Positions 3,988-63,193 of a DNA stretch of 64,000 bases are shown in pieces. The DNA comes from Nitrospirales bacterium. Its GTDB lineage: Bacteria > Nitrospirota > Nitrospiria > Nitrospirales > UBA8639. The notes beneath the pieces were generated by a model, which worked only from the letters and a program-made list of their open reading frames with translations, was not told the DNA's origin and did not search any database. Position numbers and translations under genes: made by a program. Every line of letters begins with the position of its first letter. The stretch's first letter is position 1. The DNA lies in NCBI GenBank assembly GCA_029261355.1, contig JAJDBM010000007.1, positions 1 through 64,000 of the forward strand, read 5' to 3'.

Positions 3988-4039
3988 ATTTTAGAGACAG
4001 TGCTGAGAAAAGTTCACAAGGAAGCGTTCGAGCATCGCC

Positions 4040-5548: not shown

Positions 5549-5691
5549 ATTCTGTTCTCTACGCTTGGACCTGCACATCGTCGCGCGTTCAAATTTTATT
5601 GCCACTTCGGTGAAGTAGGACCAGCAAGGAAGAGTAAAACGGACCGTGCGACAAGACTCTTCTAATTTCCCTTCACGCTTCACATTTTTTC

Positions 5692-6099
5692 TTATTGGGC
5701 ATACCGATACCCTCCGCTCATATGCCGTTCAAATGTTGTCGAAAGACCAAGATAATTTCGGTATAATGTCGACTTCATAATGCTGTCATTGTTCGGCGCC
5801 AGCTCACCAGCCTTTTGAAAATACTCAGCTGCCTCATCATATTCTTCAAGTTTGTGAAGAGTCAGGGCTAAATTATAATGCGCCTCAGGAAGTTGATTAT
5901 CAACGTGTATGGCTGCGAGAAAACGTTGCTTCGCCAATACCCATTCCCCATTATTGTAGGCCTCGATACCAGACAAATTCAGTTCGGATGCTTGAGGACT
6001 CACGATGGGTAAAACCGCAAGTGGACCAGTTAAGGCAACACATCCCTGCCCCAGAAAAATGAGAAACATGCCGAACCAGAATTTCCCAATACTCTTCAT
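5692..6099 (-). CDS. TPR-repeat lipoprotein
   Basis: A 135-residue exported protein. The N-terminus is a lipoprotein signal (FLIFLGQGC, lipobox Cys near residue 20). About 80 residues of tetratricopeptide repeats follow (GIEAYNNGEWVLAKQRFL; PEAHYNLALTLHKLEEYDEA). It resembles the lipoprotein at 48606-49082, sharing EAHYNLAL and the YFQKAGELAPN type of ending, so the two are likely paralogues. It is divergent from the oxidoreductase at 6209. A scaffold role in the envelope is probable; the partner is unknown. Confidence 0.8.
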   Translation of the reverse strand: MKSIGKFWFGMFLIFLGQGCVALTGPLAVLPIVSPQASELNLSGIEAYNNGEWVLAKQRFLAAIHVDNQLPEAHYNLALTLHKLEEYDEAAEYFQKAGELAPNNDSIMKSTLYRNYLGLSTTFERHMSGGYRYAQ

Positions 6100-6208
6100 T
6101 CTATTTCTTCCCCTTCTTCTCTTGTACTGTACTATTGCAGATGTTCATAAATCCGGGTAGGATGCCTAGCGGATAGGCTCTCGCATGACTTAGGACACGA
6201 ATACGCTC

Positions 6209-7600
6209 ATGAATCACGACATTATCATTATCGGTGGCGGTTCCGCTGGCTACGCGGCTGCCCGAGTAGCACGAGACGAAGGCGCCAATGTCGCCATCGT
6301 TGATCATGGGCCATTGGGAGGTCTGTGCATTCTTCGAGGCTGCATGCCCACGAAAACGATTCTACGCTCATCTGACATCATGTCTCTCATGAACCGTGCC
6401 GAAGAATTTGGCCTTGACCCAGTCGCTACCAAAGCCAATCTTTCGTCCATTATGGATCGAAAAGCGAAGCTCATTCAAGAATTCACAGATTATCGTATTG
6501 AATCGCTCCGCGATCCTCGCTTCACATTATATGAGGAGAGGGCTCAGTTCCTTTCACCAACAGAACTTCAAGCCGGACCACACCGATTGACAGCAAAAGC
6601 CTTCATCATCTCAACAGGATCAATTGTATCACGTGTGGCAATCCCCGGCCTTGAAGAAACTGGCTATATCACCAGTGATGAAGCACTTGAGCTCCGAACT
6701 CTTCCTCAATCAATGATCGTCTTAGGTGGAGGGGCTGTGGCTCTTGAATTCGCGCAATTCTATTCACGGCTGGGGAGTCAGGTGACCTTGCTTCAACGCA
6801 GTGCCCATATCATGTCCCAAGGTGATGAAGATCTCGCTCGTCCTGTTGAAGCACGCCTTCGAGAAGAAGGCATGACCGTCTTGACGTCTACAAATATTCA
6901 GCGTGTCAGCCAAACAAAAAGCCTCAAAACTGTCCACTATCTTCATGAAGGCAAAGAACAGAGCATATCGGCTGAAGTAATTCTTCAGGCACTTGGTCGA
7001 CAACCAAATATCGATGCACTGGATTTGAATAAAGTAAAGGTCTCAACCCATCGAGGAGCTATCACGGTTTCGGACGACATGCGAACATCAACTCCGCATA
7101 TCTTCGCAGTGGGTGATGTCAACGGTCTGCATGAAATTGTCCATATCGCAATCCAACAAGGGGAAATAGCCGGATGGAATGCGGTACATCCAGAAGCTTC
7201 CCCTCGCCTTCAAGACACACGGCTCAAAGCCCAAGTCGTCTTTACCGATCCACAAGTGGCAAACGTTGGATTGTCGGAACGGGAATGCCAACAGCAAGGG
7301 ATTAGCTATCTCGTCGCCTCTTACCCCTTTAGTGACCATGGGAAATCTCTATGTTTAGGGGAAACACACGGACATGTGAAGATTGTATGCGATCCCAAAA
7401 CCGGAGAGATCATTGGAGGCCATATCGTCGGCCCTGAAGCTTCCGAACTCATCCATGAACTGATTACCATCATGCATTTCCATGGCACCGTTCAGGACAT
7501 GCTCCTCATACCACACTACCATCCAACCCTTGCTGAGATCTTGACCTACCCTGCCGAAGAACTAGCGTCTAAACTTGAGTCACCGTCTTCTTCCCTGTAA
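6209..7600 (+). CDS. FAD-dependent pyridine nucleotide-disulfide oxidoreductase (mercuric reductase/dihydrolipoamide dehydrogenase type)
   Basis: 463 residues. The FAD site is IIIGGGSAGYAAARVA at the N-terminus, and the redox-active disulfide is in GLCILRGCMPTK. The NAD(P) site is VLGGGAVALEFAQ near residue 172, the second FAD motif is HIFAVGDVNG, and the dimerisation domain ends with HYHPTLAEILTYP, which supplies the catalytic His. The family passes electrons from NAD(P)H through FAD to a disulfide or similar acceptor. It lacks the MerA N-terminal metal domain and C-terminal Cys pair, so Hg(II) reduction is not supported. No 2-oxoacid dehydrogenase genes lie nearby, so lipoamide is not obviously the substrate either. 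Confidence 0.9.
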   Translation: MNHDIIIIGGGSAGYAAARVARDEGANVAIVDHGPLGGLCILRGCMPTKTILRSSDIMSLMNRAEEFGLDPVATKANLSSIMDRKAKLIQEFTDYRIESLRDPRFTLYEERAQFLSPTELQAGPHRLTAKAFIISTGSIVSRVAIPGLEETGYITSDEALELRTLPQSMIVLGGGAVALEFAQFYSRLGSQVTLLQRSAHIMSQGDEDLARPVEARLREEGMTVLTSTNIQRVSQTKSLKTVHYLHEGKEQSISAEVILQALGRQPNIDALDLNKVKVSTHRGAITVSDDMRTSTPHIFAVGDVNGLHEIVHIAIQQGEIAGWNAVHPEASPRLQDTRLKAQVVFTDPQVANVGLSERECQQQGISYLVASYPFSDHGKSLCLGETHGHVKIVCDPKTGEIIGGHIVGPEASELIHELITIMHFHGTVQDMLLIPHYHPTLAEILTYPAEELASKLESPSSSL

Positions 7601-7770
7601 AGACACATTTTATCTTCTGTAGACATCTTATAAACTACCTGGCCTCAGACCTTTCCCCGCGTACACATTTCTAAGTTTTCATGCTCAAAAGAATGCAATA
7701 AGATAAGGAACCATCCGCTTTATACATCACACCATCCTCGTGACTTCTTTACTTCGGAAATATTTTGCTC

Positions 7771-9351
7771 TCACATAGAATTCATGACAGGTAACCTCAC
7801 CGTAAACCTTGCTCCCCCTCCAGAACTTCCCTGTGCCATTATCGAACCTTGATGTAACTCAACAATCTTTTTACAAATAGCAAGTCCTGCTCCAGTCCCT
7901 TGATATTCTTTTCGACTATTCAATTGTTGAAACAGACCAAACATGCGATCCGTATATTGTTCATCGAACCCAATTCCGTTGTCCTCAACCACAATTTCCC
8001 AATACTGCATTTCTGATCCGGAAACTTCTTGGGCTTCTGATATTTTTTGGATTGGGTGGCCTAGAATCTTCACGATTGAGAGAACATCACTTTTTTGATA
8101 TTTCAAGGCATTGCTGAGTAAGTGATGAAATAACTGCCGCATTTGAATAGGATTTGCCTGAACTGTTGGCAACATTCCAACAGATATTGTTGTTTGGGTT
8201 GATTCAATCTCTCGCTCTAACTCGACAAGAATCTCTTCAACCAAATTACCAAGGTCGACAACCACACATTTCTGGTCAATCACCTTAATCTTCGAGTAAA
8301 TTAAGGCGTCTTTCACTAATTCTTGCATCCTGTTGGAGGATCGCTGAATACGACTGAGGTAGTCTTGGCCTTGTTCACCAAGAGCTTCACCATATTTTCC
8401 TTGGACCCGATCACTCAGCAGCTGAATTTTTCGTAAAGGCTCTTGCAAATCATGGGCTGCCACATTTGCAAACATCGTTAATTCTTGATTAGATTGCACC
8501 AACTGCTCAGTTTGTTGAACGAGCCTATGCTCGACTTGTTCACGTCGATCAATGTCTTCGAGAAGAACCTCCTTCGCCTGAAACAACGCGACTTCTTTGT
8601 AACGAAACACCTTAATCACTAGGATTACGACACCCAGCCCCAATATAGCGAGAACACTTATGAGAGCAACGGTGTCCTTTAAGGCACCCCATGTTCGAGC
8701 AATCGCATGATCCATAGGAAGAATGACTTCTAAGACTCCCCTCACATCTCCTACAGCCCAATCCTGTTTGGGAGAATCCTCATGTAGATTGTGACAATTC
8801 ACACAACTTGGTCTCATCACATCAGCCACGGCATAGCGTAACGACCAATGCCCTAACACGTCTGTAAAACGGTAAAAAGGTATTTCCGGATTCTTATTCA
8901 ATGTGACCCAGGCTTCTTTGCCAAACTCATCTTGCAATCCTCCTGTCGTCTGACGCCAAGGAAAGGGAAACTTACTATAGAGTCTGGTTTCGAGATCAGA
9001 TTGCGATTCGCCTAGTTTCTCCGCCAACAGAAGACTAAGGGTAGCAGGAAGAGGAATGGCCCCAGGCACATTCTGATAGTCATGAGTCACACGAATTCCA
9101 TGAGTTTGGGCGGCATTTACGACCTCGGATGTATACAACGTACGAAATGCTCGTAACGCATGAACCGATCGCGCCGCCCCTTCAATGGCATTCATTTTCG
9201 TCAATTGGTGAGAAAGATCCCAGAGATGTCCTACGATCACCACCAGACTCAATACGAACGCCAGCAAGAGAAACGGTATAATCTTTTCACTAAGCCATGA
9301 GATGGATTCAGAAAAGATCGCACTGCTCTTTTTTGGCCCGTCGTCAAACAA
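7771..9351 (-). CDS. Membrane sensor histidine kinase with DUF3365-type (CxxCH) periplasmic sensor
   Basis: 526 residues. A membrane helix (about 24-45) is followed by a periplasmic region of about 175 residues containing CVNCH (Cys183, Cys186, His187), a c-type haem attachment motif, in a context typical of DUF3365/Tll0287-like sensors. A second membrane helix (about 223-248) leads to a coiled coil, a HisKA domain (VAAHDLQEPLRK) and a HATPase_c domain (NALKYQ, DNGIGFD, GTGAGLAI). The start is TTG; the next Met lies after the first helix, so TTG is preferred. It probably senses a redox ligand or gas through haem. No regulator is adjacent; the Rcp1-type receivers at 2-3.6 kb fit its H-box class. 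Confidence 0.88.
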   Translation of the reverse strand: MFDDGPKKSSAIFSESISWLSEKIIPFLLLAFVLSLVVIVGHLWDLSHQLTKMNAIEGAARSVHALRAFRTLYTSEVVNAAQTHGIRVTHDYQNVPGAIPLPATLSLLLAEKLGESQSDLETRLYSKFPFPWRQTTGGLQDEFGKEAWVTLNKNPEIPFYRFTDVLGHWSLRYAVADVMRPSCVNCHNLHEDSPKQDWAVGDVRGVLEVILPMDHAIARTWGALKDTVALISVLAILGLGVVILVIKVFRYKEVALFQAKEVLLEDIDRREQVEHRLVQQTEQLVQSNQELTMFANVAAHDLQEPLRKIQLLSDRVQGKYGEALGEQGQDYLSRIQRSSNRMQELVKDALIYSKIKVIDQKCVVVDLGNLVEEILVELEREIESTQTTISVGMLPTVQANPIQMRQLFHHLLSNALKYQKSDVLSIVKILGHPIQKISEAQEVSGSEMQYWEIVVEDNGIGFDEQYTDRMFGLFQQLNSRKEYQGTGAGLAICKKIVELHQGSIMAQGSSGGGARFTVRLPVMNSM

Positions 9352-9925
9352 GTGGAGCCCTACCTATCAATGTGGGACGGAAAAATCCATTCAGTGTCAA
9401 CGATGCGAAGAAGACAATTTTCTGCAGACAGCAATTACTTAAATGGCTGAAAATCCTTGGGGGAACTTTTTCTTGAGTCGGTATGGAAAAGTAAAAGAAA
9501 GTTGAAAAGAAGAAGGTCTTACGCAGATTGAGTAAATTGCTGACTGTTCGTATAAAACAAGTCAAAGGAATTTCCCTCATACATCCTGAAGCAGTTGCGT
9601 GCAAAGGCCGAATTTCGTTCTTCATTACTTTGGTAATTCGTTATATGTTCCTCCAACTTTCAGGCCTTACTGCATTGCAGTCAATCCTGACCATTGAGAA
9701 AGCTCTAGTCACCCGACATAGACCATTAGTACTCGGGTTTAAGAGAATTTCGTCTCATTCTAGACAATACTTGAGGTGAATTTTTAACGAGATGAAAGCT
9801 CTCGAATATTCATGACAATCAAGACTTGGACGATTGGTTATTCACTCGGTTCAAACATACAATCTTGACAACCGGCATTGGCAGAAATTTTAACTTTCCA
9901 ATTGAAAAACTAACAGGAATCTTCG
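9352..9925. other. Long intergenic region between kinase and TVP38 gene
   Basis: A gap of 570 bp with no supported gene. A short plus-strand open frame (9528-9779) has neither a ribosome site nor recognisable sequence. The segment lies upstream of the kinase and downstream of the TVP38 gene, both on the minus strand, and probably contains the kinase promoter, which I cannot place. I found no strong inverted repeat. Confidence 0.4.
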
Positions 9926-10756
9926 TTAAACTGATGTATTGGACGGATCTTGTTCCTTCGAACCACACCAAGAACACTTGGTTGGTGCCTCAAATGAGAG
10001 AACCGGGGCAGGGCTAGATAAAGGTTCCTCATCAAATTCTGGTTTCTTGCCAAGAATTAATTGCACCCACTTTGCGGATTGATTCCGCATGATTAACTTT
10101 GGCAACACAAGAAATAGTCCAACCAACACAATTCCTAAGAGAAACACCATCCAATCTGCAGCCATCGTACTGCTGCCAAAGTAGACGAGGGCATATGTTG
10201 GAGGAATCATGCCAACGAATGTCGCCAAGGCAAAAGCTTTGAGGCTCATTTTGGTCAACCCAGCCCCATAACTCACAAGATCGAAGGAAAATAGTGGAAG
10301 GAGACGAGACACCAATACGAACCCAAAAAGATGATGATCCGAACATTTCTCACAGAAAACCACATCACTTTTCAGTAAGCGAGCGATGACCTCCCGGCCT
10401 AATGTCCGACCAATCAAGAAGCTCACGATCGCTCCGATCTCCGCACCGATTACCGCATAGACTGTTCCCATGAAGGGTCCAAATGCCACTCCAGCTGCAA
10501 GATCTAACGGAAGACTAGGGATCGGACTGACCACCACGGCTAAGGCCATGATGCCCACAAACACCACCGGAGCCATGACTCCAAACGTCTGAATAAAATC
10601 CACGAATTTGGCTGGCTGAAGATATCCTGTTATGTCATAGTGACTGATGACTCCATAGGCTATGGCTAAGATCATCGCCCACAAGGCTATCTTGCCCCAA
10701 GCCCCAAGATTGGCATCTTTCCTTTTTTCACGTGGCATTGCTGCTGGCTGCTTCAT
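9926..10756 (-). CDS. TVP38/TMEM64 (VTT-domain) membrane protein with CxxC tail
   Basis: An inner-membrane protein of about 276 residues. A polar N-terminus is followed by a hydrophobic helix (IALWAMILAIAYGVI). The VTT/SNARE-assoc core has the family motifs PIPSLPLDLAAGVAFGP and GAEIGAIVSFLIGRTLGRE. The segment LVSRLLPLFSFDLVSYGAGLT matches the conserved R-(L/I)-P-hydrophobic motif, and further membrane segments follow. The cytosolic C-terminus ends with KCSWCGSKEQD, a CxxC pair not usual for the family. The frame opens with GTG at 10762 and ATG at 10756; neither has a clear ribosome site. DedA/TVP38 proteins are linked to lipid or small-molecule transport. Confidence 0.87.
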   Translation of the reverse strand: MKQPAAMPREKRKDANLGAWGKIALWAMILAIAYGVISHYDITGYLQPAKFVDFIQTFGVMAPVVFVGIMALAVVVSPIPSLPLDLAAGVAFGPFMGTVYAVIGAEIGAIVSFLIGRTLGREVIARLLKSDVVFCEKCSDHHLFGFVLVSRLLPLFSFDLVSYGAGLTKMSLKAFALATFVGMIPPTYALVYFGSSTMAADWMVFLLGIVLVGLFLVLPKLIMRNQSAKWVQLILGKKPEFDEEPLSSPAPVLSFEAPTKCSWCGSKEQDPSNTSV

Positions 10757-10988
10757 ATTCACTGACTAATCATGCACTCATTTAACCAACATTGAGCACG
10801 GTCATATTCCAGGAACATAGGACAATTGACTGTATGTCGAAATCTGCTGTCCTGCAAGAGATAACCTATGAATATCTGACTATCAGGATTGCTGTAACAA
10901 CTTCCCACATGATGAGACTCTGTATCATGCGCTGAAATACTCACAGACACAAACTTTTGCATAGAATAACCAACAAGGAGTCTTTGAT

Positions 10989-11741
10989 ATGACGACTCAA
11001 CCCATGGAGCAGACAATGAGCAATTCATCCAGCACTTCAGTTGAACAGAGTTCAAGTCCAATTGGCAAAATTGTCCTCGCGCTCCTTCTCGCTATCGGCA
11101 TTGGAGCCTTTTTCTATTTTGACCTTGGACAGTATCTCTCTCTCGATTCGCTCAAGTCTAATCGTGACAAACTTCTCGCATATACCGAAAATAACTTCAC
11201 TCTGGCAGTCTCTCTTTTCATCCTCATCTATATTGTCCAGACGGCCTTCTCACTTCCAGGCGGCGCAATTCTAACTTTGGCTGGAGGTTTTCTTTTTGGA
11301 GCATTCCTGGGCACACTGATCGTGAATGTAGGCGCCACAACCGGTGCAACCTTGGCATTTTTGGCAGCCCGTTATCTCTTAAGGGATTGGGTGGAAAGTA
11401 AGTTTGGCGATCGACTGGGCCCAATACAATCTGGATTCGCACAAAATGCCTTTAGTTACCTCATGACCCTAAGACTCATCCCTGCCTTTCCATTCTTCTT
11501 AGTCAACCTTGTTTCAGGCCTGACTCGTGTCAACATAGGAACCTATATTGGTGCAACGGCGCTTGGAATCATTCCTGGCAGTTTCGTCTTTGCATTTGCC
11601 GGTCGACAACTCGGGACCATCAATTCATTATCTGAAATTGCCTCTCCTTCAGTCTTACTCGCATTTACATTCTTAGGTCTGCTTGCCATTATGCCTATCA
11701 TCTATCGAAAAATGACTGGCAAAAGTAGTCCTGGGGCCTAA
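10989..11741 (+). CDS. TVP38/TMEM64 family membrane protein
   Basis: 250 residues. A Ser-rich polar N-terminus of about 25 residues is followed by a helix (IVLALLLAIGIGAFFYF). The VTT core contains FSLPGGAILTLAGGFLFGAFLGT, with the small-residue turn typical of the family. After TTGATLAFLAARYLLRDWV comes LRLIPAFPFFLVNLVSGLTRV, the conserved R-L-I-P-x-F-P-F motif. AAGGAG at about 10976 sits 8 bp before the ATG. It is divergent from the other TVP38 gene and followed closely by an FAD disulfide oxidoreductase, a pairing common in bacteria. Confidence 0.92.
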   Translation: MTTQPMEQTMSNSSSTSVEQSSSPIGKIVLALLLAIGIGAFFYFDLGQYLSLDSLKSNRDKLLAYTENNFTLAVSLFILIYIVQTAFSLPGGAILTLAGGFLFGAFLGTLIVNVGATTGATLAFLAARYLLRDWVESKFGDRLGPIQSGFAQNAFSYLMTLRLIPAFPFFLVNLVSGLTRVNIGTYIGATALGIIPGSFVFAFAGRQLGTINSLSEIASPSVLLAFTFLGLLAIMPIIYRKMTGKSSPGA

Positions 11742-11803
11742 AGATAGCGTCTACAATATGAAAACAAACCCCATATTACCTATATTTTAATTTGAGGATA
11801 CAG

Positions 11804-13360
11804 ATGATTCAACCGACGCCCCTCCATCATGACGTTGAAATCCTACCAATGGATGAATTCAATCAAGAATTGGTGAACAATGTTCATCCACCTCAATGGA
11901 CAAACCCAACGCCCGATGGGAAATATAATCTCGTCGTCATTGGGGCCGGCACTGCCGGACTCATTACAGCCGCAGTTGCGGCAGCCCTCGGAGCCAAAGT
12001 GGCCTTAATCGAACGGCATCTGATGGGTGGTGATTGCCTCAATGTTGGATGTGTGCCTTCCAAGGGGATCATTCGTGCTGCTCGCGCCTGGGCTGAGGTA
12101 AACAATGCCAGTGAGTATGGACTCCATATATCTCCCGAACACGTGACACGAAACTTCGATGTGGCGATGGCTCGCATGAGAAAACTCCGAGCACGAATTA
12201 GTCACGTTGATTCAGCACATCGTTATAAAAAACTTGGAGTTGACATCTATATTGGTGAAGGGAAATTTACCAATGCATCTACAGTTGAAGTCGCTGGGCA
12301 AACACTCACATTCACGAAGGCAGTAATTTGTACAGGTGCCAGAGCCGCAGCACCACCCATTCAAGGTTTGGAAGATGCGGGATATTTAACGAATGAAACT
12401 ATTTTTTCTTTGACTACATTGCCTCCTCGTCTGGCCGTAATTGGTGCTGGGCCGATTGGCTGTGAAATGGCGCAATCTTTCGTCCGATTTGGTAGTCAAG
12501 TTTCTCTTTTCGAGCGAAGTGACCACATTCTTCCGCGCGAAGATGCTGATGCCGCAAAAGTTGTACAAGCACAAATGGCGAAAGAGGGCGTATCATTTAT
12601 CTTTAATTCCAATGTTCAGCGAGTTGAATCCAGAGGCACAGAAAAAGTTCTTCATTACGAAGAAGATGGACAGAGTCATGAACTCGTCGTTGATGAAATA
12701 TTAGTGGGAATCGGCCGAGCGCCAAATGTCGAAGGCTTAGGGTTGGATCTGGTTGGGGTCGAATTCGACCAACGAGCTGGAGTGAAGGTTAACGACAAAC
12801 TTCAAACTTCAAACCCCAAAATTTACGCCGCTGGAGACATTTGTTTCCCGTTTAAATTTACTCATACCGCCGATGCCATGGCACAAATTGTTATTCAAAA
12901 TGCCCTCTTTCCCCACCCGCTTGGATTTGGATATGCCAGTACTGATTCACTGATCATTCCATGGTGTACGTTTACCGAACCTGAGATTGCTCATGTGGGC
13001 CTCTACGAACACGACCCACAATCTAAAAATATCGAGATTGATACGTTTACATTTCCTCTTCATGAAGTTGATCGCGCCATTTTGGATGGGGAAGACGAAG
13101 GGTTTGCACGAGTGCATGTGAAGAAGGGAACTGATACAATCCTTGGAGCAACCATAGTGGCAGCTCATGCAGGAGATATGATCAGCGAATTTACTCTAGC
13201 CATGAAAGCTGGGGTGGGGCTGAGTACCATCACTGGAACCATACACCCTTACCCCACTCAAGCTGAAGTTATTAAAAAAGTTGCGAATGCCTGGAGAAAG
13301 ACAACATTCACTGATGGGAAAAAACAATTCCTGAAAAAACTCTTCGCATGGACCCGTTAA
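11804..13360 (+). CDS. Mercuric-reductase-like FAD/NAD(P) disulfide oxidoreductase
   Basis: About 518 residues. A leader of about 40 residues precedes the FAD site (VVIGAGTAGLITAAVAAALG); the redox disulfide is in GGDCLNVGCVPSKG. The NAD(P) site is VIGAGPIGCEMAQSF, the second FAD motif is KIYAAGDICFP, and the dimerisation domain ends with TIHPYPTQAEVIKKV. A GAGG at 11794 fits the ATG at 11804 better than the upstream in-frame TTG at 11792. No heavy-metal domain and no C-terminal Cys pair are seen, so real mercuric reductase activity is unlikely. The gene follows a TVP38 gene in the same direction; the natural substrate of this paired family is not established. Confidence 0.92.
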   Translation: MIQPTPLHHDVEILPMDEFNQELVNNVHPPQWTNPTPDGKYNLVVIGAGTAGLITAAVAAALGAKVALIERHLMGGDCLNVGCVPSKGIIRAARAWAEVNNASEYGLHISPEHVTRNFDVAMARMRKLRARISHVDSAHRYKKLGVDIYIGEGKFTNASTVEVAGQTLTFTKAVICTGARAAAPPIQGLEDAGYLTNETIFSLTTLPPRLAVIGAGPIGCEMAQSFVRFGSQVSLFERSDHILPREDADAAKVVQAQMAKEGVSFIFNSNVQRVESRGTEKVLHYEEDGQSHELVVDEILVGIGRAPNVEGLGLDLVGVEFDQRAGVKVNDKLQTSNPKIYAAGDICFPFKFTHTADAMAQIVIQNALFPHPLGFGYASTDSLIIPWCTFTEPEIAHVGLYEHDPQSKNIEIDTFTFPLHEVDRAILDGEDEGFARVHVKKGTDTILGATIVAAHAGDMISEFTLAMKAGVGLSTITGTIHPYPTQAEVIKKVANAWRKTTFTDGKKQFLKKLFAWTR

Positions 13361-13418
13361 TGCTTGCACTCAGATGATCATTGGCCAACAACAGGCATAC
13401 AGCACAAAGGACTTGAAG

Positions 13419-14198
13419 ATGCGTTTCTTCCCTTCCATTCAGAATATAATTTCAGGTCTTCTCTGGGCTGTGATAGTCGGCCTCCCCCTCCTTAGCCTCG
13501 CAAAAACCAAACCTGAGACCATACTAGAAGTTGGTAAGTTTTCGGCTGAACAGGCTGGGAGCAAGCTTCCTATCGGCTGGAAACCACTCACCTTTGAAAA
13601 CATCAAGGACCACACCCATTACGAGCTCGTCAAAGACAAGAAAAAGGTTGTTCTGAAGGCGTTGAGTGTATCGAGTGCTTCCGGGGTGACCAAAGAAATC
13701 TCCATTGACCCCAAAGAATTTCCAATCGTGCACTGGCGATGGAAAGCAGAGAACATCTTCAAGAAGGGCAATGTGAATTTAAAAGAAGGCGATGATTATC
13801 CAGCAAGAATTTACATCACCTTTGCCTATGACAGCGATCGAGTCGGGTTTTTTGAACAAACAAAATATGAGGTCGCGAAGTTACTCTACGGCCAATATCC
13901 TCCGTTAAATGCGATCACGTATATTTGGGGAAACACAAGTCCAGTCGGAACTGTTGTGCCTAATCCTTATACAGATCGAGTTCAAATGTTTGTCACACAA
14001 AGTGGGTCAAAAAAACTAGGACAATGGGTCACTGAAGAACAAAATATCTATGAAGACTACGTGCAGGCATTTGGGACCGAACCACCCAACATTTCTGGAG
14101 TCGCCATTATGACAGATTCGGATAATACCAAAGAATCAGCAATCGCGTATTTCGGGGATATTGTTTTCAAAAAGCGAAAAGCGAACACTAAGAAATAA
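13419..14198 (+). CDS. DUF3047-type exported protein
   Basis: About 259 residues. I chose the start at 13419 because AAGGA (13407-13411) has correct spacing and the product then opens with a signal peptide (RFFPSIQNII... PLLSLAKT). The frame itself is open from 13374. The mature part includes HWRWKAEN, GDDYPARIYITFAYD, AITYIWGN and a C-terminal IAYFGDIVFKKR. This pattern matches the DUF3047 family, a periplasmic beta-rich domain of unknown function. It follows the oxidoreductase by about 60 bp on the same strand and may belong to its operon. Confidence 0.75.
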   Translation: MRFFPSIQNIISGLLWAVIVGLPLLSLAKTKPETILEVGKFSAEQAGSKLPIGWKPLTFENIKDHTHYELVKDKKKVVLKALSVSSASGVTKEISIDPKEFPIVHWRWKAENIFKKGNVNLKEGDDYPARIYITFAYDSDRVGFFEQTKYEVAKLLYGQYPPLNAITYIWGNTSPVGTVVPNPYTDRVQMFVTQSGSKKLGQWVTEEQNIYEDYVQAFGTEPPNISGVAIMTDSDNTKESAIAYFGDIVFKKRKANTKK

Positions 14199-14273
14199 CC
14201 CATTCAGAACATTCAAGTGTGACAAGATTTCCTCACTCGGTCCTTCTTACTCATACCATTCTTCGCTTTTTTC

Positions 14274-14852
14274 TTAGCCATAATCAGGAGCATTCCCTGA
14301 CTTCCATTTAATGTTACATCCCGCACTCGGGAGCTGTGTTGCATTGACAGGCTGTCCGCTTAACATACGCTCAATGGCAGCTCGTAAATCCTTACCTGTA
14401 ACAGGCTTACCATTTCCTGGGCGACTGTCATCTAACTGTCCACGATAGACCAATCTTTGTGAGTGATCAAATAGAAAAAAGTCTGGCGTACAAGCTGCAG
14501 TAAAACGCTTTGCAACATCTTGGCTCTCGTCGTAACAAAGAGGAAAGACAAAACCAGACTCTTCCACCATATGCTTTAATGATTCAGGCGCATCATCTGG
14601 GTAGCTCTTGGCATCATTGCTACTAATTGCGATGATCTCAAGTTCTGCCAAATCGTAATCGTGACCAAGTTGCGCTAACTCGTCCCTCACATGCACGACA
14701 AATGGGCAATGCTGACAAATAAACATGATCAACACACCCTTCTTCTCAGCATAGATCTCAGGAGAAATCATCTTCCCAGACACGACTTCAGGTAACTCAA
14801 ACGTCGGGATGGTCGTTCCAAGCTCTAACATCGTTGAATTGGTTAAAGACAA
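14274..14852 (-). CDS. Thioredoxin-fold (AhpC/TSA-like) protein
   Basis: 192 residues with a thioredoxin fold. The active site is FICQHCPFV (Cys46, Cys49), followed by IIAISSNDAKSYPDDAPE and CTPDFFLFD with the cis-Pro, then LVYRGQLDDSRPGNG. This corresponds to the thioredoxin-family (ResA/AhpC-like) proteins with a CxxC of unusual QH composition. The start is TTG at 14852: a perfect AAGGAGG at 14860-14866 lies 7 bp before it, while the next Met is about 20 bp further in. It has no signal peptide, so it is a cytoplasmic thiol reductase or peroxidase-like protein. It lies downstream of the ECF sigma/anti-sigma pair on the same strand. Confidence 0.87.
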   Translation of the reverse strand: MSLTNSTMLELGTTIPTFELPEVVSGKMISPEIYAEKKGVLIMFICQHCPFVVHVRDELAQLGHDYDLAELEIIAISSNDAKSYPDDAPESLKHMVEESGFVFPLCYDESQDVAKRFTAACTPDFFLFDHSQRLVYRGQLDDSRPGNGKPVTGKDLRAAIERMLSGQPVNATQLPSAGCNIKWKSGNAPDYG

Positions 14853-14968
14853 ATTATGGCCTCCTTACGATAAAAATAGACTAGAAAAAAAGAATGGTGG
14901 GTGATCAGATGGAAAAAGTGCGCATCTCAAAGCCCAGCTCGAGATCAATCGATACATGCGCGACGAAG

Positions 14969-15247
14969 CTATCCCTTTTTCCAATGTTGAAATCGTCGAA
15001 GCAACTCTTCTCGAACATGCGGAGAAATAGGTTCAGGTGGAAGTTTCCCAAGAGTTTGAACAGTAGCCTTCATTTGTTCCAAATAATTCCTACAGTCCCG
15101 ACACATGCCCAAATGCATGTGGAACCGGATTCGATTCGACAAGGACATGGCCCCCTCAAGATACTCGGTAATGATTTCAGCCACGTCCTGGCAAGATAAC
15201 CGCCCAAGCAAGTAGGACATCAAGTGTTCTTTTAGATTTTTATCCAT
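14969..15247 (-). CDS. Zinc-binding anti-sigma factor
   Basis: 92 residues. The motif HLGMCRDC gives the H-x3-C-x2-C zinc-binding anti-sigma (ZAS) signature (His45, Cys49, Cys52). It starts 5 bp after the stop of the ECF sigma gene, so both are made together. Proteins of this type sequester the sigma factor and release it when the zinc site is oxidised. No membrane helix follows the zinc motif, so this is a soluble anti-sigma. Thiol or oxidative stress is the likely inducer, in keeping with the thioredoxin-like gene just downstream. Confidence 0.88.
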   Translation of the reverse strand: MDKNLKEHLMSYLLGRLSCQDVAEIITEYLEGAMSLSNRIRFHMHLGMCRDCRNYLEQMKATVQTLGKLPPEPISPHVREELLRRFQHWKKG

Positions 15248-56558: not shown

Positions 56559-57113
56559 TCAAAAGCCTGAGGCCTTACTCTTAGAATGATCATGAAGATC
56601 ATCTGCACGTAATGGCCTTTGAGAATTGGACATATTCGAAAGGGAACCAACCTTCTGCCTCACATCTAATGTCAGCAAGTAAGGCGCGACAAACCCCTTA
56701 TATTCTTTCTTTCGTTCGCTTGGCAAGTCTTTCCATCCAGTAATTTTCCCTCTACACCCCTCAGCACCACACATGCACATTTCTGGAAAATGATCAATAC
56801 TATAATTCCTCATCGCATAATCAAATGTAGCTTCTTCATTCACACTGATGTCCTTCATAGCCACAAAATCATGAGCTCCGGTTGCATTGACCTTTATGCC
56901 GCAATTTGGCTCGCAGCAATGATTGACCTTACTGATTAATCCATCGTGCAGAACATGTGTATGTTCAGCTATCTGGGATGCATGAGAGTGATTGGCAGGC
57001 AGGAACTCCTTAATCACACCGACCATAACGATATCACCAACTTTAAAGGCTTTGGTCGCATAAATACCTTCTCCTTTTTGAGAAGTCCCTCTCAATTCAT
57101 ATCCAATTGACAT
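56559..57113 (-). CDS. SET-domain protein (putative lysine methyltransferase)
   Basis: 184 residues. The SET core is present: GEGIYATKAFKVGDIV at the N-terminus, SKVNHCCEPNCGI (Asn64, His65 of the S-adenosylmethionine-binding motif), then NEEATFDYAM with the catalytic-region Tyr99. A post-SET-like cluster CMCGAEGCRG follows (Cys113, Cys115, Cys120), which with Cys71 could hold zinc. SET proteins methylate lysines; bacterial examples are few and include a chlamydial enzyme that acts on histone-like proteins. AAGGAG lies 7 bp before the ATG. The last 40 residues are polar. The substrate is unknown; the Lys-rich protein at 29522 is a candidate. Confidence 0.88.
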   Translation of the reverse strand: MSIGYELRGTSQKGEGIYATKAFKVGDIVMVGVIKEFLPANHSHASQIAEHTHVLHDGLISKVNHCCEPNCGIKVNATGAHDFVAMKDISVNEEATFDYAMRNYSIDHFPEMCMCGAEGCRGKITGWKDLPSERKKEYKGFVAPYLLTLDVRQKVGSLSNMSNSQRPLRADDLHDHSKSKASGF

Positions 57114-57259: not shown

Positions 57260-59221
57260 TTATGCATTCAGTATCTGCACCTTTTCGGTGTACCGCAGAA
57301 CAGTCCACACAAAAGCGGAATGGCTCCACGTCAAAGGCGATACGCAAAGCGGTGAACCATTGACAGGGTGGACCTGTTCGGCAAGTACACCGGAAGGAAG
57401 AGCATTTTTCCCACACCATTCAAAATATGGAAGAGTGGCTTGAAGCTGCTGCGGAGTCTCAGCTTGATCGATAAAATATTCTGCGAGCCACAGGGTCGAA
57501 ATAAACCATGGATTTCCAGGAATGTCATTGGGGCTATCCTCTGCACGCTGATAGACGTCACCCTGGTATCTGGCGCACCCTTCAACAGCAGTATTCAACC
57601 AGAGCTGATTGCGTACAGCATTGGCAGTTTCAAGCATACACAAATCGTTCGGATCAAAAACCCCAAGAGTGGCCAAACTTAAAAGACTGACATCAATGAC
57701 TTCATCGAGTTGATATCCTTCTTCTGTTCGGGAGCCTGAACGGGCAAATCGCTTCAGCCCGTCATGGTAAAGGTGAAGACGAATCCCTCTCGTCATTTCC
57801 TCAGCCACCAAGTCATACTTGCTTGCGAGAGAAACATCATGAAAGAGTTTTGCAAAATTCGCAGCGGCCCGGAGTCCAGCGATCACCGATGCCACAGTAT
57901 AGGCATGGAGAGCATACCGTTCTTCCCATAAATCATAGGAAGGCAACGGTAGCAATGTCTTAGGATCACGATAGCTAACTAAAAAGTCCGCTGATTTTTT
58001 AATAAGGGAATTGTAGAGTGGTCGAATAAACTCGACGTCCTTCAAACTCTGGTAATGTAGCCAAAGCGCCCATAGAGTCAACGCGGTTGAATCTTCTTGG
58101 ATGGGAAGGACCTCTTTACCATCGACTAACCATGAATGCCAATTACTGGCCAGGGATCCATCCGGATTATAATGCTGGAACAAATACCCTTCCTCGGATA
58201 ACACGCGGGCGCAATAGTCAAAATATTTCATACACACGTGCGAATACCCTGCCTTAGCTAAAGCAGCGGCAACAAAAGCACCATCCCGTCCCCACATATA
58301 CGAATACGTATCTTTTCCAAAACGAACAATATCCGAATCATTCGCGGCTATAATCGCGCCATGATTATCAATTTGTGTCCGTAAGACAAGTAGGCTTCGG
58401 TGAAAAATATCAGTCACGGATTTGGGAAGATCCCGGAGTGGGAGTGAGTCTTTAGGCACCCAAGTTTTCCAGTATTTAGACGAGCGCTTGAGTAGTTCCT
58501 CCGGCATAATGCGATGGACTTCCAAATTGAGCTTGGTGACTTCTGAGTAAGTCGTACCCGCTACAATCCAATAATAGGCAATTGTGGTTCCTTGAGGAGG
58601 CAATTCCATCCAAATACCTATGGTTGAATGAGGTGAACCCCATGCAGAGGCCTCCCCGCTCAGTTCTCCGTTCTCTAGCTCTTTCAGTATCGCCAAACTG
58701 CCTGAAGTCTCTCTTTTTCCGCAGGCAAAATGAGTCACACCCCATTGATCATGCGCCCAACAACTAATCAGAAAATATCGGTGCATTTTATAATGAATGA
58801 TCGAACAGCTCCGTGGATCAAAATAGGCCGTACCTCCAATGTCATTCCCATACAGAAAAAAATCATGGCTAAAAAAGAGCCGAACCTGTCTGGCCTCAGA
58901 CTTAAGATTGCGTACCTCAATTTTCTTGACGTAGATATTCAAATCGAAATCCACCACATCCGAGCATCGGAGTTCCAATCCTAATGCCGAATTCTTGAGA
59001 AAGACCTCTGTGACAAGACTCTTATTCTCATACCGTAAATCTTTCTCCCATTCCGGCCCCATCCATGAATACAGTCCATCCACCCACACACCAAAGAGGA
59101 AAGGATGTCCACTAGAATGATTCTCCTGCCCGATAAACGGAAAGTAGATGTCTCGGATTTGATAATCCGAATCGAAATTTATTAGGAAAGCCCCGTTACT
59201 GACGGGGATATCTCTAGGCAT
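57260..59221 (-). CDS. Glycoside hydrolase family 15 (glucoamylase/trehalase-like)
   Basis: 653 residues. The N-terminal 250 residues are a beta-sandwich (FLINFDSDYQIRDIYFPFIGQENH). The C-terminal (alpha/alpha)6 barrel has the GH15 signatures TYSYMWGRDGAFVAAALAKAGY, PIQEDSTALTLWALW, PSYDLWEERYALHAYT and ALPSGVLAEQVHP, with general acid and base Glu residues in the LWEER and LAEQ segments. It has no signal peptide, so it acts in the cytoplasm on an alpha-glucan or trehalose. AAAGGA precedes the ATG. A glycosyltransferase at the right edge suggests glucan or trehalose turnover. A palindromic operator-like motif lies 122 bp upstream. Confidence 0.9.
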   Translation of the reverse strand: MPRDIPVSNGAFLINFDSDYQIRDIYFPFIGQENHSSGHPFLFGVWVDGLYSWMGPEWEKDLRYENKSLVTEVFLKNSALGLELRCSDVVDFDLNIYVKKIEVRNLKSEARQVRLFFSHDFFLYGNDIGGTAYFDPRSCSIIHYKMHRYFLISCWAHDQWGVTHFACGKRETSGSLAILKELENGELSGEASAWGSPHSTIGIWMELPPQGTTIAYYWIVAGTTYSEVTKLNLEVHRIMPEELLKRSSKYWKTWVPKDSLPLRDLPKSVTDIFHRSLLVLRTQIDNHGAIIAANDSDIVRFGKDTYSYMWGRDGAFVAAALAKAGYSHVCMKYFDYCARVLSEEGYLFQHYNPDGSLASNWHSWLVDGKEVLPIQEDSTALTLWALWLHYQSLKDVEFIRPLYNSLIKKSADFLVSYRDPKTLLPLPSYDLWEERYALHAYTVASVIAGLRAAANFAKLFHDVSLASKYDLVAEEMTRGIRLHLYHDGLKRFARSGSRTEEGYQLDEVIDVSLLSLATLGVFDPNDLCMLETANAVRNQLWLNTAVEGCARYQGDVYQRAEDSPNDIPGNPWFISTLWLAEYFIDQAETPQQLQATLPYFEWCGKNALPSGVLAEQVHPVNGSPLCVSPLTWSHSAFVWTVLRYTEKVQILNA

Positions 59222-59778
59222 AGGGTCCTTTCATCAAACTCCTTATTGATTAAGAATTGACACCACACGTCTTCGTAGACAAGAAGAGAGTAGACATCAT
59301 GAGGCCAATTTTATAATTCTAAACCTCCGAACCAACCAAGTCTGAGCAATATTGCTCAAGCTGGAAAAACGGACCAGGCAATCGGCTGCCCTGGCTTCCC
59401 TCACCAAGATCAGCAGCAATAGGAAAACCTAGAAGACTGTTCAAGATCAGTAATCGTCACGAGAAGGTGCCTAGGACACGGAAGAACCAAGTCTTTGTAG
59501 CTCCAACCCGATAACCTCGTTGAAACAATGAGAGATCTTTACCAAGTATCTCTATTGCCAGCGTCCTAGTGAGTCAGATGTTTCGATTCTGTAAGGAGAA
59601 ATTTTAGCTAGGACACGGTAGAGTTATGGTGATCGTGCACATGAAGTCATTTCTTAGATCATAGTTCATAACCGTAGGAAACATGGTCACGACAGTTGTC
59701 CCAGTTAACGAAAAGGATTGGAAGATTTGAACGAATTCAACGGAACCTGAGGAAACCAGACTAACATTGGACAGGCCC
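59222..59778. other. Intergenic region with repeats between GH15 and Crp/Fnr genes
   Basis: About 557 bp without a supported gene. It contains the perfect 16-bp palindrome at 59343. An 11-bp direct repeat CTAGGACACGG is found at 59471-59481 and 59608-59618. A tract near 59375-59395 (CAGGCAATCGGCTGCC) is similar to one after the second palindrome (near 61908). This region looks like duplicated regulatory DNA. Confidence 0.5.
59343..59358. promoter_or_regulatory. 16-bp palindrome TGAGCAATATTGCTCA, site 1
   Basis: A perfect self-complementary 16-mer, 122 bp upstream of the GH15 gene and downstream of the first Crp/Fnr gene. Its length and two-fold symmetry suit a dimeric Crp/Fnr regulator, although the half site is not the classical TTGAT. 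Two near copies lie at 61871 and 62440. Confidence 0.55.
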
Positions 59779-60432
59779 TTAGTCGTGAAGCACGACATTG
59801 AGGAGGGAACGGTGCACGTGTAATCCGTCGTTGTACTCAATGAATCCCAGCTTGCGGAATTTTCTCATGAAGAAACCGACGCGGGAGCGCGTGGTGCCAA
59901 TCATCTCGGCCAGCCGTTCCTGACTGATCTTCGCAATAACTGGCTCCGGCTCGCCTTCTTTCCCAAACTGTGCCAGTAACAATAGCACCCGTGCGAGCCG
60001 CTTCTCGGCAGAATTAAAGAGTTGATCAACTAAGTCTTCCTGTATGCGTTTGTTGCGAACAAGAAGATATTCAAGAAACAACGACGAGAAGGTGGGTTCG
60101 TCTCGGAGGACCAGGAGCATCGCCTGTTTATCAATACGGACGATCTTCGCCACACCAAGCGTGGTCGCGGCCTCTAGGCGCGTAGCCTGACCAGTCAGGC
60201 AGGCTTCACCAAAAAACGCCGTGGCCTCCAAATTCGCCACGATGGCCTCTTTTCCCTGTTGAGATAATACGGTGAGCGAGACTGTCCCAGCCTGAATATA
60301 ATACACAGCATCCGCCGCATCCCCTTGTAAAAAAAGAATATGATCCTTTCGACACGACAAGATAGTTTTGCCCTTTCCGACTTGTGTCAGAAAAGTTTTG
60401 GAATTGAATGATGGGGGTCGCTTGGAGGACAT
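59779..60432 (-). CDS. Crp/Fnr-family transcriptional regulator (paralogue 1)
   Basis: 217 residues. A cyclic-nucleotide-type beta-roll (DHILFLQGDAADAVYYIQAGTVSLTVLSQQGKEAIV) is followed by the dimer helix. The winged helix (ISQERLAEMIGTTRSRVGFFMRKFRKLGFIEY) ends HVHRSLLNVVLHD. It lacks the N-terminal Cys cluster of FNR, so it is not an Fe-S oxygen sensor of that kind, and its cAMP residues are not obvious. It is about two-thirds identical by eye to the gene at 62543. The receiver protein at 60465 ends 33 bp upstream on the same strand. Confidence 0.92.
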   Translation of the reverse strand: MSSKRPPSFNSKTFLTQVGKGKTILSCRKDHILFLQGDAADAVYYIQAGTVSLTVLSQQGKEAIVANLEATAFFGEACLTGQATRLEAATTLGVAKIVRIDKQAMLLVLRDEPTFSSLFLEYLLVRNKRIQEDLVDQLFNSAEKRLARVLLLLAQFGKEGEPEPVIAKISQERLAEMIGTTRSRVGFFMRKFRKLGFIEYNDGLHVHRSLLNVVLHD

Positions 60433-60464
60433 GACTCGTCGTAAAGATGAATTGGATTGTGGCT

Positions 60465-60878
60465 TTACAAGACGGCAACGTCGGATCGGACATCACCTGA
60501 TCGTAAAACATTGTTCCCACTGAAGAGTTCAGTCAGAATTGCGTGGAAATCCTCGCAGTCAAAGGGTTTGTACAGACAGGCCCGCGCTCCGGCCTCGATC
60601 GCCTCGGCCGCCACCAGACCATCGGTCTGGCCTGTGATCATCACGACCGGTAATGAATAATACTCTTGGATGTGCCCTAAAACCGTCAGACCGTTTACTC
60701 CAGGCATCATATAATCGAGCAAAACGGCGTCATAGTGTGTTTGTGTGAGCTTGGTCATCGCTACCTCACCATTCTCCGCAATGTCGCTCGAATATCCATA
60801 CGTTTCCAAAAGAATGTGGAGCAAAGTGCGCAAACTGGCGTCATCATCGACGACGAGGAGGTGTTTTTTGGCCATCAT
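60465..60878 (-). CDS. Single-domain response regulator
   Basis: 137 residues, receiver only. VVDDDASLR is the acidic pocket, the acceptor Asp is in AVLLDYMMPGVNG, the switch Thr in VMITGQTDG and the Lys in LYKPFD. It lies upstream of the Crp/Fnr gene on the same strand, 33 bp apart, so phosphorylation could link to that regulator. It has no kinase beside it. It is a typical CheY-like receiver, not of the Rcp1 type. Confidence 0.93.
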   Translation of the reverse strand: MMAKKHLLVVDDDASLRTLLHILLETYGYSSDIAENGEVAMTKLTQTHYDAVLLDYMMPGVNGLTVLGHIQEYYSLPVVMITGQTDGLVAAEAIEAGARACLYKPFDCEDFHAILTELFSGNNVLRSGDVRSDVAVL

Positions 60879-61025
60879 CCTGATGCAATCTCCTTATAGG
60901 TCGTTTCCAAAACCTTTAGTGTTCTCATTTAGCGTGGGACCATTCTTTATCGACTTGATGCCGAGGATTCGACAAGGCCGTCCAGGACGATTGGACGTTC
61001 ACCATAATGCCCAACTCCTCGCCAG

Positions 61026-61229
61026 TCAGAGAGACGACCTCCACTCGCCTTGACCTAAAGAATAAACTCGACCCTCTTCAATCAATCTTTTTCGGTCCTC
61101 GCTAATTTGTTTGCAGAGTTGAAGGTTTTCCTGTTGCATATTTCTAACCTCACGAACAAGCTGTCTGTTTTTTTTGCGGATATCAATAAGCTCTTGTTCC
61201 AGCTGGTCGACATATAACAGAGTGGTCAT
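61026..61229 (-). CDS. Small coiled-coil protein
   Basis: 67 residues from the Met at 61229, fixed by a strong AAGGAGGAG 5 bp upstream; the open frame extends further up but without a ribosome site. The middle 45 residues are a charged heptad pattern (LEQELIDIRKKNRQLVREV, MQQENLQLCKQISEDRKRL), a probable coiled coil. It has no signal peptide or Cys pair. The function is unknown; the position between two regulators suggests a partner role. Confidence 0.55.
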   Translation of the reverse strand: MTTLLYVDQLEQELIDIRKKNRQLVREVRNMQQENLQLCKQISEDRKRLIEEGRVYSLGQGEWRSSL

Positions 61230-61304
61230 GATAGCTCCTCCTTGAGCATACACCTCTATTGGAGAAAAATACCTCCAACACAATTGAGGTTCGGCTGTGC
61301 CTCC

Positions 61305-61607
61305 CTATCTCCCCGTTGGTGAAGATATCAGGGGAACTGGGAATCGCTGTCGGGGACTCCCTGTGAAAACTAACTCAGGATTCGAAGTTCGATGTTGAAG
61401 AATCAGGGGATCAATAAGTTCTCCACACTGGAAACACCGAAGGGCCCAAAACCCATTTTCATCATTGCTGTCAAGTATATCCATGCAAAATACTCGAACA
61501 AGCAACCCCTGACATCTGAGACATGAGGAAGACGAATCAAGAACATGTGAATAAACGGAATTAGACCAGGTACAAACTTTGTTCTTTTGGTTAGTAGTAC
61601 TTCTCAT
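61305..61607 (-). CDS. Small zinc-ribbon protein (paralogue of 45662-45865)
   Basis: 100 residues. A polar N-terminus of about 27 residues precedes the ribbon: SCLRCQGLLVRVFCMDIL and WALRCFQCGELIDPLIL (Cys29, Cys32, Cys58, Cys61), matching the protein at 45662 in spacing and in the CGExxDPxI end. A perfect AAGGAGG lies 5 bp before the ATG. A palindromic operator-like motif lies about 265 bp upstream. The function is unknown. Confidence 0.7.
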   Translation of the reverse strand: MRSTTNQKNKVCTWSNSVYSHVLDSSSSCLRCQGLLVRVFCMDILDSNDENGFWALRCFQCGELIDPLILQHRTSNPELVFTGSPRQRFPVPLISSPTGR

Positions 61608-61870
61608 TGTGCCTCCTTACTGATTAGGATTACCTGAGGGAGCTGCGTCACTTATGCAAATCAATTGAGGTTCCATGATTCAGACCCTATGAACGTGTTC
61701 AGTAGAGATCTCACGTTTAATATATTCATTTCCATTTGGGTTGATCAGCATGTATCCATTTCTCTTTACCGTGAGAGATCTCGTGATTGCTTCGAGTTCG
61801 ACTCGATCGATATTTATCATGTCCTATATACAAATAATTGGTCATTATGGCTGAAAGACAGCTAGTCGTC

Positions 61871-61886
61871 TGATCAATATTGCTCA
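61871..61886. promoter_or_regulatory. Palindrome-like TGATCAATATTGCTCA, site 2
   Basis: One base away from site 1. It shares about 28 bp with site 3 (CAGC, two variable bases, GTCGTCTG, then the motif) and shares a downstream tract with site 1. It lies upstream of the zinc-ribbon gene at 61607. Confidence 0.5.
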
Positions 61887-62085
61887 GATTGGAAGAGTTA
61901 ATTTGACAGGTAATTGACTGCCACCGCGAGAAACTGTCAATTAAAAATTTATTGCCGGTTTCATGGATTGAAAAGCGCAACCGCACGGTGCCAGTCATGC
62001 CGAACCTGGAAAGAAATTTTTGGTTTCAAAATTATTGATGCACGATTCAGATTCGCTTGTTGCTAGGGAGCACCTTCTTCCTTAA

Positions 62086-62104
62086 ATAACGGGTGAGCCG
62101 TTAT
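62086..62104 (-). terminator. Hairpin after the small zinc-ribbon gene
   Basis: ATAACGG (62086-62092) and CCGTTAT (62098-62104) form a perfect 7-bp stem with a 5-base loop. It lies 65 bp past the stop of the 62169-62354 gene, and TTTAAGG follows on the minus strand. It is a plausible weak terminator. Confidence 0.4.
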
Positions 62105-62168
62105 AGTGATTGAATGGTATAGTCGGGTCCCATTTTATTAAGCAGGTTTAGAGAAAGTAAGTAGGGAA

Positions 62169-62354
62169 TCAGATCCAGGGATAGTCTCCCAGTCCCTTCA
62201 CATTTGCCGATGGTTGAACGCAAGTCCGGCACAGGTATGGTCCAAAATTATTTACTGTAAAGAACGTTGCTAGATGGGTCGAGCCACACCGACAGCAACA
62301 GACCAGATCTATCTGGGTAGGATTTTTATAGGAACGGGCGACTCGGCAAGTCAT
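62169..62354 (-). CDS. Small four-Cys protein (putative zinc ribbon)
   Basis: 61 residues. CCCRCGS (Cys19-21, Cys23) and LCRTC (Cys42, Cys45) can form a zinc ribbon; no other feature is seen. GAGG lies 8 bp before the ATG, which supports translation. It sits just downstream of palindromic site 3 on the minus strand, between the second Crp/Fnr gene and the hairpin. I do not recognise the family. Confidence 0.45.
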   Translation of the reverse strand: MTCRVARSYKNPTQIDLVCCCRCGSTHLATFFTVNNFGPYLCRTCVQPSANVKGLGDYPWI

Positions 62355-62439
62355 ACGATCAACCTCGGTCTTACTCAGGGGATAGAGGGCAGGAGCTTTA
62401 GCCTATCAGTTCAGTATAGAAGGATGGCAGCATGTCGTC

Positions 62440-62455
62440 TGGTCAATATTGCTCA
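62440..62455. promoter_or_regulatory. Palindrome-like TGGTCAATATTGCTCA, site 3
   Basis: Two bases from site 1 and one from site 2. It lies 85 bp upstream of the small zinc-ribbon gene and downstream of the second Crp/Fnr gene. Confidence 0.5.
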
Positions 62456-62542: not shown

Positions 62543-63193
62543 CTAGTCGTGGAGAACGACATTGAGGAGAGAGCTGTGCACGTACAACCCATTGTGCGAA
62601 TCGCCATCATATTCAATGAAGCCCAGTTTACGAAACTTATTCATGAAGAAACTGACGCGGGAGCGTGTGGTGCCGATCATCTCTGCGAGCGTTTCCTGAC
62701 TAATCCTCTCAAGGACGGGCTCCGGCGCTCCTTCTTTCCCAAAATGAGCCATTAACAGCAACACTCGCGCAAGCCGCTTTTCTGCAGAATTAAAGAGTTG
62801 ATCAACCAAGTCCTCTTGAATACGCATGTTACGGGACAGAAGATATGTCATAAACAGCGATGAAAGGGTGGGTTCGTCACGTAGCGCCTCGATCATCATC
62901 TGTTTGTCAATGCGGAAGAGCGTACAGTCTTCCATGGCAATCGCCGATGCCAGCCATACCCGTTGCCCGCCGAGGCATTCTTCTCCGAAAAATCCGGTCT
63001 GTTCCACAACGGCGATAATGGCTTCTTTGCCTTGTTTGGAGACCACAGAAAGCTTGACCTGTCCCTTCTGGATATAATATACGGCATCTGCCGTGTCTCC
63101 TTGAGAAAAGATAATTTGCTTCTGAAGGAAGGACAGACAGCTTTTGCCTTTGCCAACTTGAGTGAGAAATGTCTGCGGATTAAATGGCTTCAT
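62543..63193 (-). CDS. Crp/Fnr-family transcriptional regulator (paralogue 2)
   Basis: 216 residues, close to the regulator at 59779. The beta-roll (QIIFSQGDTADAVYYIQKGQVKLSVVSKQGKEAII), the strongly conserved stretch VDQLFNSAEKRLARVLLLMAHFGKEG and the helix-turn-helix (ISQETLAEMIGTTRSRVSFFMNKFRKLGFIEYDGD) all match. The DNA-contacting TTRSRV is the same in both, so both should bind the same sequence. It has no FNR-type Cys cluster. Confidence 0.92.
   Translation of the reverse strand: MKPFNPQTFLTQVGKGKSCLSFLQKQIIFSQGDTADAVYYIQKGQVKLSVVSKQGKEAIIAVVEQTGFFGEECLGGQRVWLASAIAMEDCTLFRIDKQMMIEALRDEPTLSSLFMTYLLSRNMRIQEDLVDQLFNSAEKRLARVLLLMAHFGKEGAPEPVLERISQETLAEMIGTTRSRVSFFMNKFRKLGFIEYDGDSHNGLYVHSSLLNVVLHD

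Follow-up and report, generated by a model that had tools for sequence, protein, structure and literature searches.

Three palindromes beside two Crp/Fnr genes as predicted class II operators of a compact activated regulon in a Nitrospirales bacterium

A 64-kb stretch of DNA from a Nitrospirales bacterium (64,000 nucleotides, here called the window) carries a set of near-identical palindromes next to two genes for Crp/Fnr-type regulators, which raises the question of whether these palindromes are operators of a local regulon and which protein would read them. An exact pattern search finds three near-identical copies at 59343 (TGAGCAATATTGCTCA), 61871 (TGATCAATATTGCTCA), and 62440 (TGGTCAATATTGCTCA), exactly the sequences and positions of the original prediction. 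Its remark that no others were noticed also holds in the window, where no fourth copy of TGNNCAATATTGCTCA occurs with up to two mismatches. All three are intergenic and read TGAGCAATATTG(AC/AT/CT)CA-GAC on the minus strand; toward the downstream gene, the form is TGAGCAATATTGNNCA followed by GAC at each of the sites, designated P1, P2, and P3. Operator P1 (59343 to 59358, minus strand) is the perfect palindrome TGAGCAATATTGCTCA, P2 (61871 to 61886, minus strand) reads TGAGCAATATTGATCA, and P3 (62440 to 62455, minus strand) reads TGAGCAATATTGACCA, each continuing into GAC. As had been claimed, they lie upstream of a GH15 gene, a zinc-ribbon gene, and a Cys-protein gene, all on the minus strand, with gaps from site to gene start of 121 nt, about 263 to 271 nt, and about 85 to 93 nt, respectively.

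The presumed target of P3 is a Cys-rich small protein of 61 residues (62169 to 62354), whose homologues in other Nitrospirota likewise have a site upstream, at 79 to 131 nt in close cases. P2 presumably serves a zinc-ribbon-like protein of 100 residues with a CxxC...CxxC pattern (61305 to 61607), beyond which lie a coiled-coil-like ORF of 67 residues (61026 to 61229) with no homologue in the fetched loci of relatives, a stand-alone response-regulator receiver domain (60465 to 60878), and the Crp/Fnr regulator gene crp1 (59779 to 60432), with which the presumed P2 operon ends. The receiver-domain gene adjoins crp1 here and a regulator gene in loci L028 and L104, and several genomes show such a link between a receiver-only response regulator and crp1-like genes. 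The first gene 3′ of P1 is of the GH15 glucoamylase type (57260 to 59221) and is followed by a SET-domain-type gene (56559 to 57113); all of these genes are on the minus strand. NCBIfam and Pfam offered no name for the small Cys, zinc-ribbon, and coil proteins, and Rfam gave no match between 56000 and 64000. Just outside the window (contig C7:67738-67962, L124) lies the gene of another zinc-ribbon paralogue, with 45% identity over 49 residues and no site of this motif upstream.

The full motif, TGAGCAATNTTGANCA-GAC with a fixed -10 element, extends beyond the 16-mer and is more clearly directional. When spacing was computed for a non-redundant set of 69 sites, drawn from relatives and from the window, a -10 element (scored as A2 plus T6) was found +29.5 nt from the operator centre in 44, compared to 0 to 12 of the 69 sites at the other downstream offsets tested. 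All three window sites match five of the six -10 bases at this spacing, with TAGAAT for P1 (59316 to 59321), CATAAT for P2 (61844 to 61849), and TATACT for P3 (62413 to 62418), all on the minus strand. Given an operator centred at -41.5, this element occupies positions -12 to -7. Enrichment was also seen for G at -33 (60/69 sites), A at -32 (38/69), and C at -31 (42/69), which correspond to the GAC of TTGACA at a spacer length of 17 nt. Since GAC is conserved on one side only, it is best read as a degenerate -35 that does not belong to the palindrome. Because TGAGCAAT and TTG..CA had been fixed in choosing the 69 sites, the evidence comes from the remaining columns only. The arrangement of a class II Crp/Fnr-type promoter, i.e., an operator at about -41.5, a fixed -10, and a weak -35, is found in 44 of the 69 sites and at the three window sites, the transcription starts being predicted. 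A generic promoter scan returned nothing above chance and missed P1 to P3 because their -35 is degenerate, and in an unfocused enumeration of spaced dyads the signal was swamped by conserved coding sequence. Many operators are also preceded by a weak T/C-rich stretch (TTTTCC) at -58 to -53, perhaps an UP-like element.

To score operator, GAC, and -10 together, we trained a promoter matrix on a non-redundant set of 31 sites, all taken from other genomes. In the window, it gave 37.7 bits for P2, 37.6 bits for P3, and 35.2 bits for P1; the next-best score in the 64 kb was 14.2 bits, for the P1 palindrome read on the opposite strand, and the maxima in six shuffled windows were 9 to 14 bits. Full-matrix scoring covered the 64-kb window, and genome-wide counts were obtained from pattern searches and fetched stretches. 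With up to one mismatch, TGNNCAATATTGNNCA occurs at 25 places in the 4.6-Mb genome (reversed control, 5), 6 of them exact, and three of these 6 exact copies of the relaxed 16-mer are the window sites. Inspection of the 3 extra exact copies and about 10 one-mismatch copies, out of the 25 in total, placed almost all inside ORFs and revealed no convincing class II -10 together with GAC. As for possible scatter of the motif through coding DNA, stray coding copies are thus few and, among those inspected, devoid of promoter parts. Weaker matches elsewhere in this genome were discounted as additional regulon members, since most lie inside ORFs and a matching -10 is missing.

The second regulator gene, crp2, lies at 62543 to 63193 on the minus strand, and the matrix scan gave no high score for this motif in its upstream region. 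Crp1 and Crp2 are 70% identical, belong to the Crp/Fnr superfamily with PF00027 (cNMP-binding) and PF13545 (HTH_Crp_2) domains above the cutoffs in both, and have IGTTRSRV in common, which bears out the claim of two Crp/Fnr genes with the same TTRSRV segment. The recognition helix GTTRSR.SFFMNKF is nearly invariant in the subfamily; Crp2 carries its typical form, GTTRSRVSFFMNKF, from which the Crp1 helix differs at two positions. No invariant cysteine was found among 22 subfamily members, and the residues that form the ligand site in CRP are conserved only in part. Neither protein reaches the NCBIfam CRP equivalog (50 to 56 bits against a cutoff of 266), and the operator is also not TGTGA-N6-TCACA; both are far below the cutoffs of the FNR, FixK, and NtcA equivalog models. 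In a phylogenetic tree, crp1 and crp2 belong to different supported groups, and each has a counterpart from the related genome G191 close by, so the pair probably predates this genome.

Like Escherichia coli CRP, the two proteins have a Crp fold made up of cNMP-binding and HTH domains, and their predicted operators resemble those of CRP in being 16-bp palindromes with two 5-bp arms, a 6-bp centre, and a -41.5 position. However, the half-site here is TGAGC with a conserved AATNTT centre instead of the TGTGA-N6 of CRP, the helix residues are R-S-R-V-S-F where CRP has R-E-T-V-G-R, and the surroundings of the Arg-Ser pair that binds the CRP ligand vary in this subfamily. FNR, DNR, and NnrR belong to the same superfamily, have palindromic operators, and commonly act at class II promoters, but the present operator is not TTGAT-N4-ATCAA, an invariant cysteine for an Fe-S cluster is missing, and the recognition helix does not carry the E..SR of FNR. 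The best solved-structure matches by sequence are of the mycobacterial CRP (Rv3676) and GlxR type (3h3u and 3d0s); such regulators recognize TGTGA-type sites and have GASRETV in the helix, whereas Crp1 and Crp2 have GTTRSRV.

Searching GTDB genomes for relatives of crp2 yielded 79 loci (784 kb) from Nitrospirota, Acidobacteriota, Rokubacteria, Alphaproteobacteria, and a few metagenome-assembled genomes labelled otherwise. In these regulator loci, TGNNCAATNTTGNNCA occurs 79 times with both strands counted, compared to at most 2 occurrences for each of 179 permuted palindromes. Sites of at least 24 bits are present in 27/34 loci from Nitrospirota, 9/19 from Acidobacteriota, 7/19 from alphaproteobacteria, and 1/3 from Rokubacteria, the groups being taken from record titles, and none was found in the reversed sequence of the same loci. 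At this threshold, 12/19 alphaproteobacterial regulator loci have no site, and high-scoring sites near the regulator are absent from plasmid loci L140, L142, and L143. On conjugative plasmids of Bradyrhizobium japonicum (L139 and L140), the regulator gene sits among stress-type genes, with high-scoring sites in L139 and none in L140. An unselected test used 198 Nitrospirota genomes, in which the consensus site and the regulator were sought separately. Consensus sites were detected in 14 of 19 genomes with the regulator versus 8 of 179 without it (Fisher p 3e-12, or 2e-11 without this genome, values that serve as a guide only because the cells are not independent of kinship), and 26 of the 35 consensus sites lie within 10 kb of a regulator gene. 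Five of the 19 regulator genomes contain no exact consensus site; looser variants are present in relatives. The regulator is patchily distributed even within the family of this genome.

Promoter and gene also stay together in relatives. The site lies 271 nt from the zinc-ribbon gene here and 270 nt from its homologue in L028, where the order of zinc ribbon, receiver domain, and crp1 is kept, and alignment of the zinc-ribbon leaders reveals a preserved operator, CAGAC, and -10 in otherwise drifting sequence. Site distances for Cys-protein homologues are 93, 92, 84, and 79 nt, and the SET homologue in L028, L033, and L035 has its own site at 206 nt with no intervening GH15 gene. In L104, the receiver-domain gene precedes a crp1-like gene. 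Among 84 candidate first genes after sites at other loci (ORFs called mechanically, many without a Pfam match), Pfam identified ferritin-like, Crp itself, YflT, CsbD, BON, YtxH, PsiE, AI-2E transporter, outer-membrane barrel, SET, and other families. On plasmids, annotated genes near the regulator encode trehalose-6-phosphate synthase, DUF1003, GH15, CsbD, Ku, and PRC-barrel proteins, among others. This gene set is of the general-stress type, and the regulon may have a role in stress. Some promoters seem to have been copied, given that in L105 three promoters before different genes share 78 to 97% identity over 40 nt upstream and that the spacers of P2 and P3 show 61% identity, a value at the 99th percentile for pairs taken from different loci. 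L105 holds five sites of the same promoter type (positions 4000 to 15100, genome G159).

Taken as a whole, the three palindromes are very probably operators of class II promoters bound by a dimer of Crp1, Crp2, or both, forming a compact, self-contained, activated regulon. The original prediction of a local regulon is well supported by three promoter-positioned sites, with none among the other copies examined, and by a motif that tracks the Crp/Fnr subfamily across phyla. From this arrangement we infer direct binding, activation rather than repression, and the operon structure; the binding protein may be Crp1, Crp2, or both. A dimer of one or both adjoining Crp/Fnr proteins would bind P1 to P3 on the minus strand at -41.5, where the downstream end of the operator would merge with a weak -35 (CAGAC, in which the GAC of TTGACA survives) that is followed, after a 17-nt spacer, by a near-consensus -10. 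RNA polymerase alone would bind such promoters poorly and would be recruited by the dimer. P3 would then drive the 61-residue Cys protein, P2 an operon of zinc ribbon, small coil, receiver domain, and crp1, and P1 the GH15 gene plus SET. With crp1 in the P2 operon, the regulator would amplify its own response, a putative positive feedback.

The same sites could instead serve this Crp/Fnr subfamily for repression, the protein covering the -35 until a signal relieves it. The downstream end of the operator does overlap the -35 position, and binding at -41.5 above a degenerate -35 is in principle compatible with repression. Yet the -10 stands at the exact class II activating distance in 44 of the 69 sites, the -35 is degenerate as expected for activator-dependent promoters, and a repressor would be expected to tolerate more varied positions, all of which makes repression unlikely. 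It is less probable still that the sites belong to another transcription factor, whether a different Crp/Fnr paralogue or an unrelated protein, with crp1 and crp2 adjacent by coincidence. Although the genome does encode several further Crp/Fnr-type proteins, at 24 to 30% identity, the presence of the motif follows this subfamily across the 198 genomes, its sites cluster beside the regulator, and it is enriched at regulator relatives in several phyla.

That the palindromes are non-regulatory repeat copies, such as the ends of small mobile elements or a duplicated spacer, has a negligible probability. The P2/P3 similarity does extend beyond the 16-mer, and the upstream flanks in L105 indicate that sites do get copied, but at most sites the flanks show no relation despite the conserved operator, GAC, and -10, and homologous gene pairs keep their site distance. 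Along with the preferred reading of P1 to P3 as activating operators, a broader scenario can be tentatively proposed, although we consider it somewhat less than an even chance: a portable regulon, in which the Crp/Fnr subfamily moves between phyla with its own operator, partly on plasmids, and gains targets by copying a ready-made class II promoter before nearby stress or envelope genes, so that the promoter is conserved and the targets change.

In the literature searched, which covered only a minority of subscription papers and regulon databases, no relevant paper contained the operator motif. A paper on comammox Nitrospira states that the role of the Fnr-type protein there had yet to be determined (PMC5596200), and earlier Nitrospira work borrowed FNR-family matrices from other bacteria, as for targets in an anammox reactor that were predicted with such an NnrR matrix (PMC8510549). 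The present analysis provides a sharply defined candidate operator and an initial list of targets for a Crp/Fnr subfamily found across Nitrospirota, Acidobacteriota, Rokubacteria, and Alphaproteobacteria, and the regulator's own matrix makes its regulon directly readable in genomes and in transcriptome data that already exist. Genome G191 of the same family contains a parallel island (L104:5300-14400), in which about 8 kb hold two regulators and seven high-scoring sites of this promoter type.
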